Below, in pieces: positions 3,552-17,259 of a stretch of 64,000 bases of DNA. Under the pieces are notes generated by a model that searched no databases, was not told the DNA's origin, and saw only the letters and a list, made by a program, of their open reading frames with translations. Each line of letters opens with the position of its first letter. Position 1 is the stretch's first letter. Source of the DNA: Lachnospiraceae bacterium (GTDB lineage: Bacteria; Bacillota; Clostridia; Lachnospirales; Lachnospiraceae). The translations under genes were made by a program, and so were the position numbers. The stretch covers positions 1-64,000 of the forward strand of contig JAAUZJ010000038.1 in assembly GCA_014804695.1 (NCBI GenBank), read 5' to 3'.

Positions 3552-4883
3552 ATGAAAAGAGTTTTTTGCTTATTTTTGAGTATGGTGGTTTTATCATTTG
3601 GTCTTGTTTATCTTAGGGGAACTGATGTAATTTCGATGTTTCCGGTATCAGAAAATGATGTGCAGGCAGAAATCGCGGATACAGGGACAGAAAATGAAAT
3701 AACTAATGTTATTAATAGTGGATCAGAAGATAAAGATACCAAGCCATATACTGCAACCGGACAAACAGTTCAGATACAAGAGGGCGAAGATATTGTAGTA
3801 TCAAAACGCTCAGATGTTTTTGCAGAAGCGGGAGAACTTAACAGTGATATCAGACAGAGCATTAGAGAAGAACAGGCTTCGTCCTATTCGTTTAGCCAGC
3901 TATCCGAAAAAGAGCAGGATATATATATAGAAATTTTGTGGACACTGCAGGGCTTTAGAGAGAATGTGAAACTATCAAGTCTGGATAATGATGAGATTTC
4001 CAATATATTTCAGTGCGTGTTGAATGACCACCCGGAAATATTTTATGTGGACGGTTATACTTATACTCAATATACGTTAGGTGATGTAATTAAGAAAATT
4101 ACTTTTACCGGAACTTACAGCATGGAGTCTGAAGAAGCTATAGAACGCCAGAAAAAGATAGATAATTATGTAAGCCAGTGCCTGGGTGAGTTATCGCAGG
4201 ATGCAGATGAATATGAGACGGTAAAGTATATCTATGAATATCTGATAAATCATACGGAATATGACAATTCCGCAGAGGACAGCCAGAATATCTGCTCGGT
4301 TTTCATAGATGGGAAATCGGTTTGTCAGGGATATGCCAAGGCAACCCAGTATTTACTGCAAGAAGCCGGAATAGAAGCGGTTCTCGTATTGGGAACGGTT
4401 TCGACGGGAGAAGGACATGCATGGAATCTGGTAAGCATAGACGGAGAATGGTACTATGTGGATACAACATGGGGAGACGCTTCATATCAGGCGGTAGGTA
4501 AGGGAGGCTCTTATTCCGAAGATAAGATACCGACGATTAATTATGATTATTTGTGTGTTACTACGGAGCAGCTTGGTAAGACTCATACTATTGATAATGT
4601 GGTAGACATGCCTGATTGCACATCCATGAACGATAATTATTATGTGAGGGAAGGCCTCTATTTTACATCAGTTGATGAAGAACAGCTATCAGGTATTTTT
4701 CAGGATGGGTATGATAAAGGCAGGACATATATAACCTTAAAATGCGCTTCGGAAGGAATTTATAATGAACTTCACGACAAACTTATTACAAATCAGGAAA
4801 TTTTCCATTACCTTGACTGTCCGGACGGAGTGGTTTCCTATACGGAGAATTCCGGGCAGTACAGCATGAGCTTTTGGCTTTGA
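3552..4883 (+). CDS. Secreted transglutaminase-like (papain-fold) protein
   Basis: N-terminal signal or membrane anchor (MKRVFCLFLSMVVLSFGLVY), an acidic linker to about residue 100, then a transglutaminase-like core around residues 205-320. Catalytic Cys is in SVCQGYAKA, His in GEGHAWNL and Asp in YYVDTTWGD, the Cys-His-Asp triad of the family. Probable role is cell-surface protein or peptide crosslinking/proteolysis; substrate unknown. ATG at 3552 is preferred because AAGGTGA lies 5-6 bases upstream. It begins 28 bases after prfC and ends before a terminator, so it is the last gene of the deoB-prfC block. The C-terminal 100 residues are not recognised. Confidence 0.75.
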   Translation: MKRVFCLFLSMVVLSFGLVYLRGTDVISMFPVSENDVQAEIADTGTENEITNVINSGSEDKDTKPYTATGQTVQIQEGEDIVVSKRSDVFAEAGELNSDIRQSIREEQASSYSFSQLSEKEQDIYIEILWTLQGFRENVKLSSLDNDEISNIFQCVLNDHPEIFYVDGYTYTQYTLGDVIKKITFTGTYSMESEEAIERQKKIDNYVSQCLGELSQDADEYETVKYIYEYLINHTEYDNSAEDSQNICSVFIDGKSVCQGYAKATQYLLQEAGIEAVLVLGTVSTGEGHAWNLVSIDGEWYYVDTTWGDASYQAVGKGGSYSEDKIPTINYDYLCVTTEQLGKTHTIDNVVDMPDCTSMNDNYYVREGLYFTSVDEEQLSGIFQDGYDKGRTYITLKCASEGIYNELHDKLITNQEIFHYLDCPDGVVSYTENSGQYSMSFWL

Positions 4884-11857: not shown

Positions 11858-13543
11858 ATGTTAATAAGCCTGCATGTGAAAAATCTTGCTTTAATTGATG
11901 AAACCGAAGTATATTTTGGAAACGGACTGAACATAATGACGGGAGAGACCGGAGCCGGTAAATCTATTATTATCGGTTCCGTTAACCTTGCACTTGGAGC
12001 CAAGGCAGATAAAGATATGATACGTACCGGCGCAGATTATGCGCTTGTAGAGCTGGTATTTCAAGTTGAAAAAAAAGAACAGCTTGATAAAATACGCCGT
12101 ATGGAGCTTCCGGTTGACGATGATGGCACAATAATTCTGCAAAGAAGGATCATGTCCGGCAAATCGGTATGCAAAGTCGGCGGAGAATCAGTCAGTCTAA
12201 AGCAGGTTAAGGCGCTTGCGGAAATACTGATTGATATACATGGACAGCATGAACATCAATCGCTGCTTTCAGAAGTAAAGCAATTGGAAATTCTGGACTA
12301 TTATTCCGGAGAAGAACTGGTTGAAAGAAAGAAGCAGCTTAAGGATTGCTATGAAAAATATAAAGAAGTGACAAAAGAGCTTTCACAGAACGATGTAGAT
12401 GAAGAAACCAGAAAAAGGGAGGTTTCCCTTGCCGAATTTGAAGCTGCGGAAATAAGTGCGGCAGAACTTGAAATAGGAGAAGATGAGGAATTACAGAAAA
12501 TCTATCAGAAACTTTTAAATGCACAGAAAATACAGGAAGCCGTAACAACAGCGTACCAGATGAGCGGGTATGATAACGGCGGAGCCGGAGATGCTATCGG
12601 CAGGGCGATTAAAGAAATACGTTCAGTCGTTAATTTTGATGAGACATTAGAGGAATTTGAGAAACAGCTTCTGGACATTGACAGTTTACTGAATGATTAT
12701 AACAGGGCTGCAGCGGATTATCTTTCTGAGGCAGGCTTTGACGCAGAACTATTTGATAAGGTTGAAAAGAGGCTGGATGTAATCAATCATCTTAAGTCAA
12801 AATATGGCAATTCAATTGGAGAAATTCTTGCATATTATGAAAAATTGCAGGAAAAACTGGAAATGTATCAAAATTATGACGAATACAGACAGCAGCTTGA
12901 ACAAAAAGAGAAAAATCTAAAGACAGAACTTATTAAATTGTGTGACAGCGTATCCAAAATACGTAAAAAAAGCGCTGAAAACCTTGCGGATTCCATGAAA
13001 AAAGCCCTGGTAGACCTTAATTTTATAGATGTGGAATTTGAAATAAAGATTGATTCGTCTGAGGATAGAATAGGGGCTGATGGTTACGATCAGGCGGCAT
13101 TTATGATATCCACTAATCCCGGAGAGGCTTTGCGTGCGCTCTCGCAGGTTGCAAGCGGCGGCGAATTATCCAGGATCATGCTTGCCCTTAAGACGGTTCT
13201 TGCGGATAAGGACGAGATAGAGACTTTGATCTTTGATGAAATTGATACCGGAATCAGCGGTAAGACCGCATGGAAGGTATCGGAAAAAATGGGTATTCTC
13301 GGTCAGAAACACCAGTTGATCTGCATTACGCACCTGCCACAGATTGCGGCAATGGCGGATACGCATTTTTTGATAGAGAAATCACTGAAAGACGAGCGTA
13401 CAATTACACAGATCTGCGAGCTGGATGATGAAAGAAGCATTGAGGAGCTTGCAAGAATGTTGGGCGGCGCCGCTATTACCGAGAACGTATTGAATAATGC
13501 AAAAGAAATGAAAGATTTGGCAGCAAAATCAAAGCAATATTAA
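11858..13543 (+). CDS. recN: DNA repair protein RecN
   Basis: SMC-like ATPase recruited early to double-strand breaks. Walker A GETGAGKSII (about residues 29-38), a central coiled coil (about 150-370), ABC signature ASGGELSRIMLALK and Walker B TLIFDEIDTGISG near the C-terminus. Length 561, normal. It is co-directional with nadK at 23 bases and is followed by a terminator, so it ends the asp23-to-recN run. Confidence 0.95.
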   Translation: MLISLHVKNLALIDETEVYFGNGLNIMTGETGAGKSIIIGSVNLALGAKADKDMIRTGADYALVELVFQVEKKEQLDKIRRMELPVDDDGTIILQRRIMSGKSVCKVGGESVSLKQVKALAEILIDIHGQHEHQSLLSEVKQLEILDYYSGEELVERKKQLKDCYEKYKEVTKELSQNDVDEETRKREVSLAEFEAAEISAAELEIGEDEELQKIYQKLLNAQKIQEAVTTAYQMSGYDNGGAGDAIGRAIKEIRSVVNFDETLEEFEKQLLDIDSLLNDYNRAAADYLSEAGFDAELFDKVEKRLDVINHLKSKYGNSIGEILAYYEKLQEKLEMYQNYDEYRQQLEQKEKNLKTELIKLCDSVSKIRKKSAENLADSMKKALVDLNFIDVEFEIKIDSSEDRIGADGYDQAAFMISTNPGEALRALSQVASGGELSRIMLALKTVLADKDEIETLIFDEIDTGISGKTAWKVSEKMGILGQKHQLICITHLPQIAAMADTHFLIEKSLKDERTITQICELDDERSIEELARMLGGAAITENVLNNAKEMKDLAAKSKQY

Positions 13544-13701: not shown

Positions 13702-14973
13702 ATGAGTGAATATAAATTAAAAAATTATCGTAGATTTTTATATATATTGCTTGCCGCGTCCACGATAGCGTTATTGACAGCGGTGTACATGGACTACTGG
13801 AAAAAGGTGCCTTCTACAATTAAAATCCGTGCAGGAGTTGAGCAGCAGCTTGATTTTCATGTGCCTGCATCCGGTGAAATATATCAGGAGGAAGCGGTAG
13901 AGAGTCTTTCTACCCAGGTAGAGAGTCTGCATGTAAATTTTTCAAAAGGCGTTACGCTTAAGGCCAATCAAATAGATAACTATGTTATGGATCTGAAGCT
14001 TTTTGGTATTATTCCTTATAAAAGCGTAGATATTCAGGTTATTCAGGATAAAATGCTGACTCCGTCAGGCCTTCCAATAGGAATTTACGTTAAGACTGAA
14101 GGTGTGTTGGTGGTTGGTATAGGAGAGTTTAAAAACGAAAAAGGAGATACCATCTCGCCGGCCAACTATATTTTGCAGGCGGGGGATTATATTCTGGATG
14201 TTAATGGAGAACGGGTAGAAAATAAGAAACAATTTATATCAATGGTGGAAAATTCAGGCGGCGAAGAAATGATCATGGGCATTAGAAGAAATGACGAAAT
14301 TACGGAGGTAAAAGTCAAACCCGAAGGAAATCAAAACGGTGAATGGAAGCTTGGCATATGGATTCGTGATAACGCCCAGGGTATCGGTACATTGACATAT
14401 ATAGACAATGACAACACTTTTGGCGCTCTTGGACATGGAATAAATGATGTCGATACTTCCACGCTCATGCAGCTTGAAGAAGGGACTTTATATAAGACGG
14501 AAATAGTAGGAATTACAAGAGGCAAAGACGGATCCCCCGGGGAGCTTACAGGTTATATTGAGTATGAAAATGAAAATATAATCGGGGAAATAACCCAAAA
14601 TACGGCAGAAGGAATATTCGGTGTGTGCAGCAATGAGATAACAGAACATACGTTCTACGAACCGATTCCGATCGCTCTAAAGCAGGAGGTGGAGATTGGC
14701 CCGGCGCAGATTATCTGTTCGGTAACCGGAGAACCTAAGTTTTACGACATAGAAATAGAGGAGCTTCATCTTGAAAATGATAATGTAAACAGAGGACTGG
14801 TAATAAAAATTACGGATGAAGAACTTTTGACACTCACAGGCGGCATAATACAGGGAATGAGCGGTTCGCCCATTATACAAAACGGTAAGTTAGTCGGTGC
14901 AGTAACTCACGTGCTTGTGCAGGATGCGGCAAGTGGATATGGGATTTTTATTGAGAATATGTTGGTGCAGTAA
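13702..14973 (+). CDS. spoIVB: SpoIVB serine peptidase (S55 family)
   Basis: Forespore-secreted protease that in Bacillus cleaves SpoIVFA to trigger pro-sigma-K processing. N-terminal membrane anchor RFLYILLAASTIALLTAVY, a PDZ domain (about residues 125-205), and the S55 peptidase with His245 in GALGHGINDVDT and Ser389 in QGMSGSPIIQ. Length 423 is normal and all catalytic motifs seem intact. GAAAGGAT precedes the ATG by about 11 bases. It sits directly before spo0A, as in other endospore formers, but here that spo0A is truncated. Confidence 0.93.
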   Translation: MSEYKLKNYRRFLYILLAASTIALLTAVYMDYWKKVPSTIKIRAGVEQQLDFHVPASGEIYQEEAVESLSTQVESLHVNFSKGVTLKANQIDNYVMDLKLFGIIPYKSVDIQVIQDKMLTPSGLPIGIYVKTEGVLVVGIGEFKNEKGDTISPANYILQAGDYILDVNGERVENKKQFISMVENSGGEEMIMGIRRNDEITEVKVKPEGNQNGEWKLGIWIRDNAQGIGTLTYIDNDNTFGALGHGINDVDTSTLMQLEEGTLYKTEIVGITRGKDGSPGELTGYIEYENENIIGEITQNTAEGIFGVCSNEITEHTFYEPIPIALKQEVEIGPAQIICSVTGEPKFYDIEIEELHLENDNVNRGLVIKITDEELLTLTGGIIQGMSGSPIIQNGKLVGAVTHVLVQDAASGYGIFIENMLVQ

Positions 14974-15029: not shown

Positions 15030-15114
15030 ATTGGTAGCATAAAATGGAAATAAAAGGAAACTTGTTATTTCCGGAAAAAACTGTGGGAAATCTGCAGTAT
15101 AATGGGGGAATTTT

Positions 15115-15639
15115 ATGGAACAATTAAATTTAACTGTAACTAGAGACAACGAAAATGTGTATCAGATTCTGAATAATTTAATGAATGGAGATAAAGAATT
15201 TCAGATTATGATAACGGTGCCATCAAGCAGAAATGAGAATATGGAGAATGAAATAAAGGCGGCTGCCAAGCTTGATACTTCTCACGATCTTGAAAGAGAC
15301 GTTACAAATATGATACATGAAATCGGAGTACCCGCACATATTAAAGGATATCAATATCTTCGTGAGGCAATAATGATGTCAGTTGAAGATGTGGAAATGT
15401 TAGGATCGATCACCAAGATTTTATATCCTACCATTGCTGCTAAATACCAGACTACTCCAAGCAGGGTAGAGCGTGCTATAAGGCATGCTATTGAGGTTGC
15501 ATGGTCAAGAGGAAAGATGGAAACATTGGACGCACTCTTTGGATATACCATCAATACCGGAAAAGGAAAACCGACAAATTCGGAATTTATAGCGCTTATT
15601 GCGGATAAAATCCGCCTTCAGTACAGAAGTCTTTTTTAA
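15115..15639 (+). CDS. spo0A: Truncated Spo0A: DNA-binding domain with a mostly deleted receiver domain
   Basis: Residues 60-174 are a textbook Spo0A effector domain ([46 protein letters not shown]). The full-length family is about 260-275 residues with an N-terminal phospho-receiver; this one has 174. Residues 1-35 ([20 protein letters not shown]...) still resemble the first beta-alpha-beta of a Spo0A receiver, but the acidic pair (normally Asp-Asp) reads Arg10-Asp11. The segment that should hold the phosphorylated Asp, the Thr/Ser and the Lys is absent. The frame is open, GGGGGA precedes the ATG, and only 141 bases separate it from spoIVB, leaving no room for a separate receiver. Function without phosphorylation is inferred, not shown. 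Confidence 0.9.
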
Positions 15640-15701: not shown

Positions 15702-15755
15702 TATAATAAACGCAAGCTGACGCTTGCGTTGACAGAATTACTTTGTAATTCTGTC
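15702..15755 (+). promoter_or_regulatory. glgA leader: TATAAT box and two back-to-back hairpins
   Basis: TATAAT at 15702-15707 is followed by a 9-bp stem AACGCAAGC/GCTTGCGTT (15709-15730, TGAC loop) and an 11-bp stem GACAGAATTAC/GTAATTCTGTC (15731-15755, TTT loop). No T-run follows, so they are probably a stable 5' leader rather than a terminator. They may equally be terminating structures of spo0A lacking a U-tract. Confidence 0.5.
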
Positions 15756-15813: not shown

Positions 15814-17259
15814 ATGAAGAAGATTTTATTTGTTGCATCTGAGGGTGTGCCGTTTATCAAGACAGGCGGACTGGCGGATGTTGTTGGTTCACTGCCTAAA
15901 TGTATTGATAAAGAGTATTTTGATGTAAGGGTAATTCTTCCCAAATATACCTGTATGACACAGAAAATGAAAGACTTATTGCAGTACAGGACACATTTTT
16001 ATATGGACTTTCATTGGAGAAATGAGTATGTAGGTATCCTTGAGGCGGAAGTAGACGGCATAAAATACTATTTTGTTGATAATGAATCATTTTTTAACGG
16101 ATTTAAGCCATATAGTGATAATGCACTGTTTGAGATTGAGAAATATGCTTACTTTTGTAAGGCAGTTTTATCAATCCTTCCGGTAATTGATTTCAGACCT
16201 GACCTTATCCATTGCCATGACTGGCAGACAGGACTTATTCCGGTATATTTAAAAGAAAGATTCCAGGGCGGGGAATTTTACCGCGGAATCAAGACTGTAA
16301 TGACTATTCACAATCTGAAATTCCAGGGTAAATGGAGTGTGAAGGAAGTACAGGAGATCACCGGACTTCCGAGTTATTTCTTTACAGCAGATAAACTGGA
16401 AGCATACAAAGATGCCAACCTTTTAAAAGGCGGTATTGTATATTCAGATGCTATTACAACCGTAAGTGATACCTATGCGGAAGAGATTAAGACCGCATTT
16501 TACGGAGAAGGCTTAAATGGCTTGCTTTGCGCAAGAGCCAATGATCTACGCGGTATTGTAAACGGCATTGATTATGATGACTTTAATCCTGAAACGGATA
16601 AAAATATTGACTTTCCATATAATGCAGTGAATTTCCGTAAGGAGAAAATTAAAAATAAACGTGCGCTGCAGGCTGAACTTGGTCTTACCCAGGATGACAA
16701 GACAATGATGATCGGTATTGTTTCAAGGCTCACCGGCCAAAAAGGTTTTGATTTAATAGCATATGTTATGGATGAACTTTGCAATGATAATGTTCAGATC
16801 GTTGTACTTGGTACCGGTGAAGAGCAGTATGAGAATATGTTCCGTCATTTTGACTGGAAGTATCATGGCAAGGTATCTGCTAATATTTATTACTCTGATG
16901 CTTTGTCCCATAAGATATATGCGGCAAGTGACGCCTTTCTTATGCCGTCGCTGTTTGAGCCATGCGGTTTAAGCCAGCTTATGTCACTTCGCTACGGAAC
17001 GATACCGATCGTGCGTGAAACAGGCGGTCTTAAAGATACCGTACAGCCCTATAATGAGTATGAGAGCAGCGGTACTGGCTTTAGTTTCGTAAATTATAAT
17101 GCGCATGAGATGTTGAGTACGATTCGTTATGCGGAGTCAATATATTATGATAAGAAGAGAGAATGGAACAAGATAGTTGACCGCGCCATGGCATCAGACT
17201 TTTCATGGTATGTGTCCGCTAAGAAGTATCAGGAAATGTATGACTGGCTGATAGGATAA
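15814..17259 (+). CDS. glgA: Glycogen synthase (GT5, ADP-glucose type)
   Basis: Transfers glucose from ADP-glucose to alpha-1,4-glucan. N-terminal GT5 domain with the ADP-glucose loop KTGGLADVVGSLPK (residues about 16-29) and a C-terminal GT-B half with PSLFEPCGLSQLMSLRYGT and RETGGLKDTV. Length 481, normal. ATG 15814 is placed by GGAGGG (15801-15806). No glgB, glgC, glgD or glgP is nearby, so it is not part of a local glycogen operon; MurJ/YtgP-like gene follows at 30 bases. Confidence 0.94.
   Translation: MKKILFVASEGVPFIKTGGLADVVGSLPKCIDKEYFDVRVILPKYTCMTQKMKDLLQYRTHFYMDFHWRNEYVGILEAEVDGIKYYFVDNESFFNGFKPYSDNALFEIEKYAYFCKAVLSILPVIDFRPDLIHCHDWQTGLIPVYLKERFQGGEFYRGIKTVMTIHNLKFQGKWSVKEVQEITGLPSYFFTADKLEAYKDANLLKGGIVYSDAITTVSDTYAEEIKTAFYGEGLNGLLCARANDLRGIVNGIDYDDFNPETDKNIDFPYNAVNFRKEKIKNKRALQAELGLTQDDKTMMIGIVSRLTGQKGFDLIAYVMDELCNDNVQIVVLGTGEEQYENMFRHFDWKYHGKVSANIYYSDALSHKIYAASDAFLMPSLFEPCGLSQLMSLRYGTIPIVRETGGLKDTVQPYNEYESSGTGFSFVNYNAHEMLSTIRYAESIYYDKKREWNKIVDRAMASDFSWYVSAKKYQEMYDWLIG

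Follow-up and report, generated by a model that had tools for sequence, protein, structure and literature searches.

The spo0A gene of a Lachnospiraceae bacterium, carried on the first 64,000 nucleotides of contig JAAUZJ010000038.1 (the whole of this stretch is termed the window below), encodes a protein in which a complete DNA-binding effector follows a short N-terminal remnant of the receiver domain, here called the head. We propose, with a probability of roughly 0.6, that it represents a phosphorylation-independent form of Spo0A with a receiver cut in a single event, which still drives spoIIG and whose activity depends on how much of it is present and on the head, through which it would assemble with itself or bind a partner.

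In a Pfam-A search of the 174-residue protein at an E-value of 0.001 or better the sole match was a complete Spo0A_C domain at residues 63-166 (157.7 bits), with none to the receiver domain (PF00072). The NCBIfam profile TIGR02875 (spore_0_A) aligns residues 44-170 with positions 133-259 of its 262 positions, at 208 bits against a cut-off of 200, and both sequence and fold comparisons closely match the effector to the structures 1FC3 and 1LQ1. In phmmer searches residues 1-31 to 1-48 align with the N-terminal start of many full-length Spo0A receivers; what is left of the receiver is 37 residues comprising beta1-alpha1-beta2 only, with the first aspartate of the acidic pair (D10) changed to Arg, the second (D11) retained, and the segment bearing the phospho-acceptor absent. 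Among 85 other Spo0A loci, aligned without selection by motif, D10 is present in 79, D11 in 82 and the phospho-acceptor Asp in 83, the remaining two being one gene cut by a contig end and one with Glu at this position. The initial annotation of this DNA had described an intact frame with a ribosome site, a conserved effector, a receiver reduced to its first beta-alpha-beta with the acidic pair altered to Arg-Asp, and the loss of the phosphorylation-site segment, and on all these points the comparisons bear it out (Table 1). By locus and effector the ORF is thus a true orthologous spo0A, which departs from the family in the receiver: with full-length Spo0A (TIGR02875; Spo0A_C, PF08769) it shares the locus, the effector and a TIGR02875 score above the cut-off, and it differs in lacking the receiver past beta1-alpha1-beta2 together with the phospho-acceptor, in having Arg or Lys for D10 across its relatives, and in the new consensus of its head. 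The segment that we take to be the DNA-recognition helix is largely invariant in the alignment.

Table 1. Coordinates of the truncated spo0A gene, its parts and its neighbours in the window
Feature	Position	Strand	Basis
recN-like gene, upstream neighbour (presumptive name)	11858..13543	+	ORF, SMC_N; upstream of spo0A in relatives
spoIVB, upstream neighbour, complete	13702..14973	+	Peptidase_S55 and TIGR02860 above cut-off
Ribosome-binding-like GGGGG, 6 bases 5' of ATG	15104..15108	+	sequence
spo0A, receiver-truncated form, 174 aa	15115..15639	+	ORF, Spo0A_C match, TIGR02875 208 bits
Head, 37-codon N-terminal module: putative remnant of receiver beta1-alpha1-beta2, new consensus with R10 and D11	15115..15225	+	alignment with full-length receivers, conservation, dN/dS
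Linker of variable length (20-47 residues across the relatives) with a dN/dS of about 0.38	15226..15288	+	
Effector region, Spo0A_C (Pfam match 15301-15612)	15289..15636	+	resembles 1FC3 and 1LQ1 by sequence and fold
Presumed DNA-recognition helix segment	15451..15504	+	sequence; largely invariant in alignment
glgA-like (glycogen synthase) gene, downstream neighbour (presumptive name)	15814..17259	+	ORF; conserved position in relatives

The gene order in the window is recN-spoIVB-spo0A-glgA, where the SMC_N-bearing gene is presumed to be recN and the downstream gene glgA. The latter lies downstream of the truncated spo0A in 41 of 42 loci and of other spo0A genes in 45 of 55, and, since it is found 3' of both alike, the truncated spo0A locus is the ancestral one. 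A linkage of spo0A with glgA special to the truncated clade was also considered and rejected, as the arrangement is family-wide. Upstream, spoIVB is retained in the window and in some relatives; in most other truncated loci SpoIVB was not found within the upstream stretch examined. The interval between spo0A and glgA contains, at 15710-15755, two inverted repeats (acgcaagc...gcttgcgt and gacagaattac...gtaattctgtc), which are either terminator-like or a binding site.

All 60 genomes of the genus that were searched, that of the window included, contain a PF08769 match, and in 56 of them the main Spo0A_C copy lies in a frame of 175-226 aa (31 of these 56 were read as sequence, plus G042 as locus L162). 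The exceptions are G045, whose main copy is broken into two, and G017, G024 and G051, which show only the second gene discussed below. To the family at large we applied a sample of 200 genomes from 199 genera, using PF08769 searches of 80 and a further 80 genomes followed by reading of the sequences; 38 of the 199 genera stayed outside these searches, 16 being full-length and 22 weak by a first family screen. The truncated form was found in 16 of the 198 other Lachnospiraceae genera sampled, represented by G061, G077, G085, G091 (with an in-frame TAG), G136, G137, G149, G156, G161, G193, G220, G227, G238, G240, G241 and G249. Ninety-nine genera were taken as full-length (frame of at least 249 aa) and 42 as lacking Spo0A, 40 of the latter being without a PF08769 match at threshold. 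Not counted as truncated were G206 (gene cut by a contig end), G173 (receiver present, frame stopping at a contig end) and G256 (another effector type), and the loci L110, L126, L153, L170 and L171 are likewise not of the truncated type, though they appear on the automatic list of 77. Where the relatives bear names they are mostly Lachnospiraceae MAGs, some labelled Acetatifactor.

This comparison with close relatives, one of the checks proposed at the outset, shows a structure common to 56 of the 60 genus genomes and to 16 other genera; and because these other genomes share it, a loss of about 270 bases in assembly, raised as the possible undoing of the initial annotation, is excluded. The idea that the gene is an assembly artefact or a pseudogene, which nothing in the window favours and for which only single broken copies elsewhere (G045, G091) could be cited, has practically no probability left, as 73 truncated loci carry the same head in 58 distinct head sequences, under purifying selection and within one clade; relatives with the same structure exclude it. 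In G045 the truncated spo0A is broken into split matches (C25:92757-93067), and in G091 (L146:5439-5972) the in-frame TAG of spo0A is accompanied by a TAG in the SpoIIE match of the same genome.

A phylogenetic tree built from 155 Spo0A_C domains gathers the truncated proteins in one clade with support of 99/98 (the 41 truncated rows of the tree exclude L162, itself truncated, and L153 is a cut gene). The full-length proteins nearest to this clade are L055 (from G196), L088 and L089. Three further full-length proteins on long branches, L115, L116 and L128, are placed inside the clade at weakly resolved forks, and because of them we regard a single origin of the truncation as likely, short of proof. 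A tree of RecN and SpoIVB, which rests on the 6 truncated loci that alone hold both genes, also unites these in one clade (SH-aLRT 100).

The initial annotation had viewed the residual receiver as eroded, which is at odds with the features of the head across the clade. A KEFQI motif occurs 26 residues after the initial Met in 70 of the 73 truncated loci, and it is the linker beyond that varies in length. In an alignment of 33 heads M1, D11, L22, F29, I31, I33 and V35 are invariant, and several positions have acquired a state distinct from that of full-length Spo0A: residue 10 is Arg, Lys or Gln in 69 of 70 truncated proteins (D11 being present in all 70), residue 33 is Ile in 70 of 70 as against Gly in 78 of 85 full-length loci, and residue 35 is Val in 68 of 70 as against Ala in 78 of 85; Pro follows at residue 36 in 66 of the 70. 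By the Nei-Gojobori method the head has a dN/dS of 0.080 (bootstrap 0.056-0.150), compared with 0.382 (0.279-0.497) in the linker and 0.039 (0.024-0.049) in the effector, as calculated from the 69 of 73 loci with all three regions, in which 98 of 2346 pairs were usable, 26 of them for the linker. Over these 98 pairs synonymous change in the head approaches saturation (pS 0.70), and in the 26-pair subset the head dN/dS is 0.072. At matched effector divergence, conservation of the head is close to that of the corresponding stretch in full-length receivers, the respective values being 0.58 and 0.48 at an effector identity of 0.85, 0.59 and 0.54 at 0.90, and 0.61 and 0.63 at 0.95, with the full-length side of the comparison consisting of 75 of the 85 loci, picked by their acidic pair. 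Given its near-fixed length, new consensus and a dN/dS of 0.08, the head is not eroded and appears to be a repurposed, strongly conserved module rather than a product of decay. The view that the gene is under selection has held, with the low dN/dS extending over both head and effector.

AlphaFold2 modelled the effector well and assigned low confidence to the head (block means of 50-63, with one helix at residues 12-24); no fold for the head, and neither a dimer nor a pocket, was obtained from the model. Such a poor model is as might be expected of a segment that folds only in a complex, and equally of a shallow alignment. The conservation of the head suggests a gate or an element of assembly.

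A competing view holds that the truncated Spo0A is constitutive and controlled by its amount alone, the head being left over as a structural element, for instance one that aids stability or solubility. Sad67 is a small deletion in the receiver of B. subtilis Spo0A. It is reported to be active without phosphorylation and to induce early sporulation genes, though in rich medium this allele by itself produced no efficient sporulation, spores needing a second condition (PMC4689505). Similarly, the DNA-binding domain of C. difficile Spo0A is described as binding spo0A and sigH DNA by itself, and spoIIAA, spoIIE and spoIIGA DNA with low affinity (PMC3485338). Both precedents favor activity of an effector freed of its phosphorylation control, and the window protein would resemble Sad67 in acting without phosphate and resembles the C. 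difficile domain in being a receiver-free effector. Neither is a full parallel, as the former is a laboratory allele, whereas the window clade lost most of the receiver in nature and conserved the remnant, and the latter is an engineered fragment without a head module. Moreover, a fixed length and invariant D11, L22, F29, I31, I33 and V35 beside a freely varying linker are hardly to be expected of a mere leftover, and viral homologues do without a head (the motif is found in none of 13 viral frames read, 3 of which are full-length proteins). We rate the purely constitutive reading as less likely than not.

A search of the genome of the window with PF08769, at a completeness of 92.96%, yielded two matches, the truncated spo0A and an effector-only gene, and no full-length spo0A. 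The second full-length copy for which the initial annotation had advised searching, and which would have told against its reading, was accordingly not found at this completeness; by the same token its suggestion of a dominant competitor is unlikely, because the genome shows no full-length Spo0A to compete with. Phosphorylation control could in principle act in trans, through a separate receiver protein that binds the head and gates the effector. The conserved head might well dock such a partner, and the genome has at least 50 receiver matches. However, among the matches listed the best other receiver is 35% identical to the full-length Spo0A receiver used as query, and the best in 10 truncated-type genomes are 32-38% identical, compared with 58-59% for the full-length Spo0A receivers of two other genera; no split-off Spo0A-like receiver was thus found among the matches listed for these 10 genomes, and two of the truncated-type genomes, G240 and G061, show just 9 and 17 receiver matches among those listed. 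A few relatives do possess diverged regulators joining an intact-looking receiver to a weak Spo0A_C-like end (frames of 263-278 aa; L332 and L334-L337), namely G038, the only one of the 60 genus genomes to do so, and G149, G241 and G137 (the last with two), that is 3 of the 16 other truncated genera; at the search threshold the genome of the window showed no such regulator. Scoring 38-84 bits as against about 155-160 for Spo0A, they are a kind separate from Spo0A and far from it. Control in trans is on these grounds very improbable. The remaining longer Spo0A_C frames of the relatives are two more stand-alone effectors (G061, G156) and one weak match (G052).

Presence of spo0A is used as a marker of sporulation potential (PMC8340488, PMC11536998), and it is pertinent to ask what the truncated form regulates. 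SpoIVA is encoded by 30 of 32 truncated-type genomes, in each of them above cut-off (15 of 16 from the genus and 15 of 16 from the other truncated genera, the absences being in G020 and G249), by 24 of 24 full-length genera and by 1 of 24 genera taken as lacking Spo0A. All 32 truncated-type and all 24 full-length genomes have SpoIIE matches with an E-value of about 2e-55 or better, as does one of the genera taken to lack Spo0A, though the curated cut-off is reached in none of the 80, full-length genera included. Each of 30 genomes, of which 21 are of the truncated type, has SpoIIGA above cut-off, and SpoIIAA has matches in the same number (21 of 21 truncated), one being above cut-off. Nine of the truncated-type SpoIIAA matches contain stops, eight at the natural end and one, in G238, internal; in addition to the TAG codons of G091, G238 has stops in both its SpoIVA and its SpoIIAA match.

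A spacer of 21-22 bp between the promoter elements marks the Spo0A-dependent spoIIG promoter of B. subtilis. Upstream of spoIIGA the best promoter-like match has the form TTGACA-N21/22-TATAAT with at most 2 mismatches in 20 of 21 truncated genomes (18 with a spacer of 21 and 2 with 22) and, with a 21-bp spacer, in 8 of 8 full-length genomes, while single-base shuffles of these upstream regions gave the 21-bp spacer in 8 of 580 and the 22-bp spacer in 4 of 580; in the genome of the window the match is TTGACA-N21-TATAAT without mismatch. Exact 0A boxes (TGTCGAA) lie upstream of spoIIGA in 7 of 21 truncated genomes (0 of 6 genus members) versus 6 of 8 full-length ones, and the relaxed TGTCRAA, which overlaps the TTGACA element, in 13 of 21 and 7 of 8. 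At spoIIAA and spoIIE neither group showed a clear excess of 0A boxes over shuffles, the upstream regions being misplaced where the locus is clipped. The truncated clade thus retains sporulation genes and the spoIIG-type promoter spacing.

These data bear on the alternative that sporulation is lost or nearly so, with the truncated Spo0A serving as a regulator of stationary phase, storage or surface polysaccharide and the sporulation genes surviving as relics. SpoMAG is reported to have classed all 24 Lachnospirales MAGs that it tested, including an Acetatifactor MAG, as non-sporulating (PMC12536801); because every MAG of this order received the same call, the result says little of the present clade. 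Loss might further be read from the SpoIIE matches of the clade, which begin only at profile position 410-429, from the missing SpoIVA in 2 of 32 genomes, from the stops in sporulation genes of G091 and G238, and from SpoIVB, not found in the upstream stretch examined of most truncated loci. Against this, the clade as a whole retains core sporulation genes together with the 21-22-bp spoIIGA promoter, SpoIVA is kept by just one of the 24 genera taken as lacking Spo0A, and G065, G074 and G112 have a short SpoIIE as well although their Spo0A is full-length. We accordingly consider loss of sporulation rather unlikely. The short SpoIIE proteins of the truncated clade are encoded in frames of 386-495 aa (L202-L212, compared with L183-L201), and SpoIIE without a membrane-like segment was seen in 5 of 9 loci with full-length Spo0A and 5 of 6 of the truncated type.

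The second Spo0A_C gene in the genome of the window (C15:10746-11054; L182:10686-11081) encodes a 125-residue protein consisting of the effector alone, with a QKVERAIRNAIEVSW-type segment in place of the recognition segment of spo0A. By score, a second short-frame Spo0A_C match exists in 58 of 60 genus genomes; as read by sequence, a QKVERAIRNAIEVSW-type companion is found in the genome of the window and in 15 of the 16 other truncated genera (L163-L177), all but G238. In the Spo0A_C tree this second-gene group is not strictly one, as it is joined by L161 and L178, whose branches are very long. No short frame from 77 full-length genera exceeds 46% identity to the companion, whereas three truncated-type controls reach 62-64%. 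This co-occurrence would be consistent with the companion being a working partner or antagonist that forms a pair with the truncated Spo0A. Yet the companion is mostly situated among genes for surface polysaccharide: of 16 loci examined, 14 have glycosyltransferase-like genes nearby, 10 an initiating-sugar-transferase-like gene and 4 a chain-length-like gene, and gmd-like, fcl-like and manC-like genes each occur at 5, the names of these neighbours being our presumptive assignments. With this setting, the changed recognition segment and no companion found in G238, a local regulator is the simpler account, and the companion indeed looks like a local regulator of surface polysaccharide; a functional pair we judge improbable.

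Effector-only Spo0A homologues are also reported from gut phages (Schwartz et al. 2023, PMC10294663), and they share with the window protein the kept effector and the absent receiver. They differ in that the viral frames read lack the head, whereas the window gene is a chromosomal spo0A at the ancestral locus. In 14 phage records the matches begin at query residue 34 or later, except for one weak match from residue 19. A phage origin of the window gene was ruled out on account of its ancestral chromosomal locus and its receiver-derived head. Other stand-alone Spo0A_C proteins of Lachnospiraceae, too, are effectors without a receiver, but they have other sequences and stand beside a separate spo0A in most genomes read, G115 being without one. 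Among the papers listed in literature searches, none names in its title or the opening of its abstract a chromosomal receiver-less spo0A in Lachnospiraceae. In viral contigs 33 of 50 matches cover only the last part of spo0A (from residue 102), often near a contig edge (L292, L294-L298, L300, L301 and L305-L329 are such 3'-part matches), as if proviruses integrated at the 3' end of spo0A.

Returning to the preferred reading of a phosphorylation-independent Spo0A, we envisage that the receiver was cut, most simply once, to the 37-residue beta1-alpha1-beta2 module, and that phosphorylation of Asp would no longer control the protein. Its intact effector would bind 0A-type sites without phosphate and would still activate the spoIIG-type promoter along with a sporulation or stationary-phase program, at a level that depends on protein abundance and on the conserved head. 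Rather than holding the effector in check pending phosphorylation, the head most likely mediates dimerisation or the docking of a partner. The initial annotation had offered constitutive activity or the need for another trigger: a phosphate-independent or otherwise triggered form is still the best reading, because the gene is in frame, under selection and without the phospho-acceptor, and 'constitutive' now stands as just one option within it. Spo0A is the textbook case of a developmental decision taken by phosphorylation, and the sequence comparisons point to a clade-wide loss of this control in the master regulator of sporulation, well beyond a single window. Bacteria of the truncated clade probably have another means of starting the program, and models of clostridial sporulation built on orphan kinases need not hold for them. 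A clade with sporulation genes and a spoIIG-type promoter but an acceptor-less Spo0A would show that the decision can be rewired to another input; it offers a natural test of the role of the receiver, with the head as a short conserved motif to target. As a broader speculation, which we advance tentatively and think more apt to fail than to hold, at least 17 gut Lachnospiraceae genera might start the Spo0A program without a phosphorelay, one deletion having created the selected head module and, with the companion sited among polysaccharide genes, the sporulation and matrix outputs being split between two phosphate-free proteins.

Several further Spo0A_C forms were encountered in the family. 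The stand-alone effectors of G061 (L338:892-1626) and G156 (L339, frame 886-1422 on the minus strand) carry an N-terminal stretch like a diverged copy of the head. A third form, from a Roseburia-labelled MAG (L126:3583-4194), has the receiver cut later and Glu for Asp at the phospho-acceptor. An independent receiver truncation, in which beta1-alpha1 and the acidic pair are kept, is present in G117 (L214, frame 3846-4391 on the minus strand), where full-length Spo0A is also encoded. G115 (L217-L220) has no canonical Spo0A, yet it encodes SpoIVA and shows a strong SpoIIE match as well as five stand-alone Spo0A_C genes of diverged sequence. In several other genera two full-length spo0A-like genes stand in tandem, less than about 1 kb apart, at G155:C22, G207:C6, G226:C19, G230:C11, G179:C13, G120:C6 and G094:C82. 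Finally, the one-contig genome G135 (C1) has nine Spo0A_C matches, of which eight lie in short frames and one contains an internal stop.
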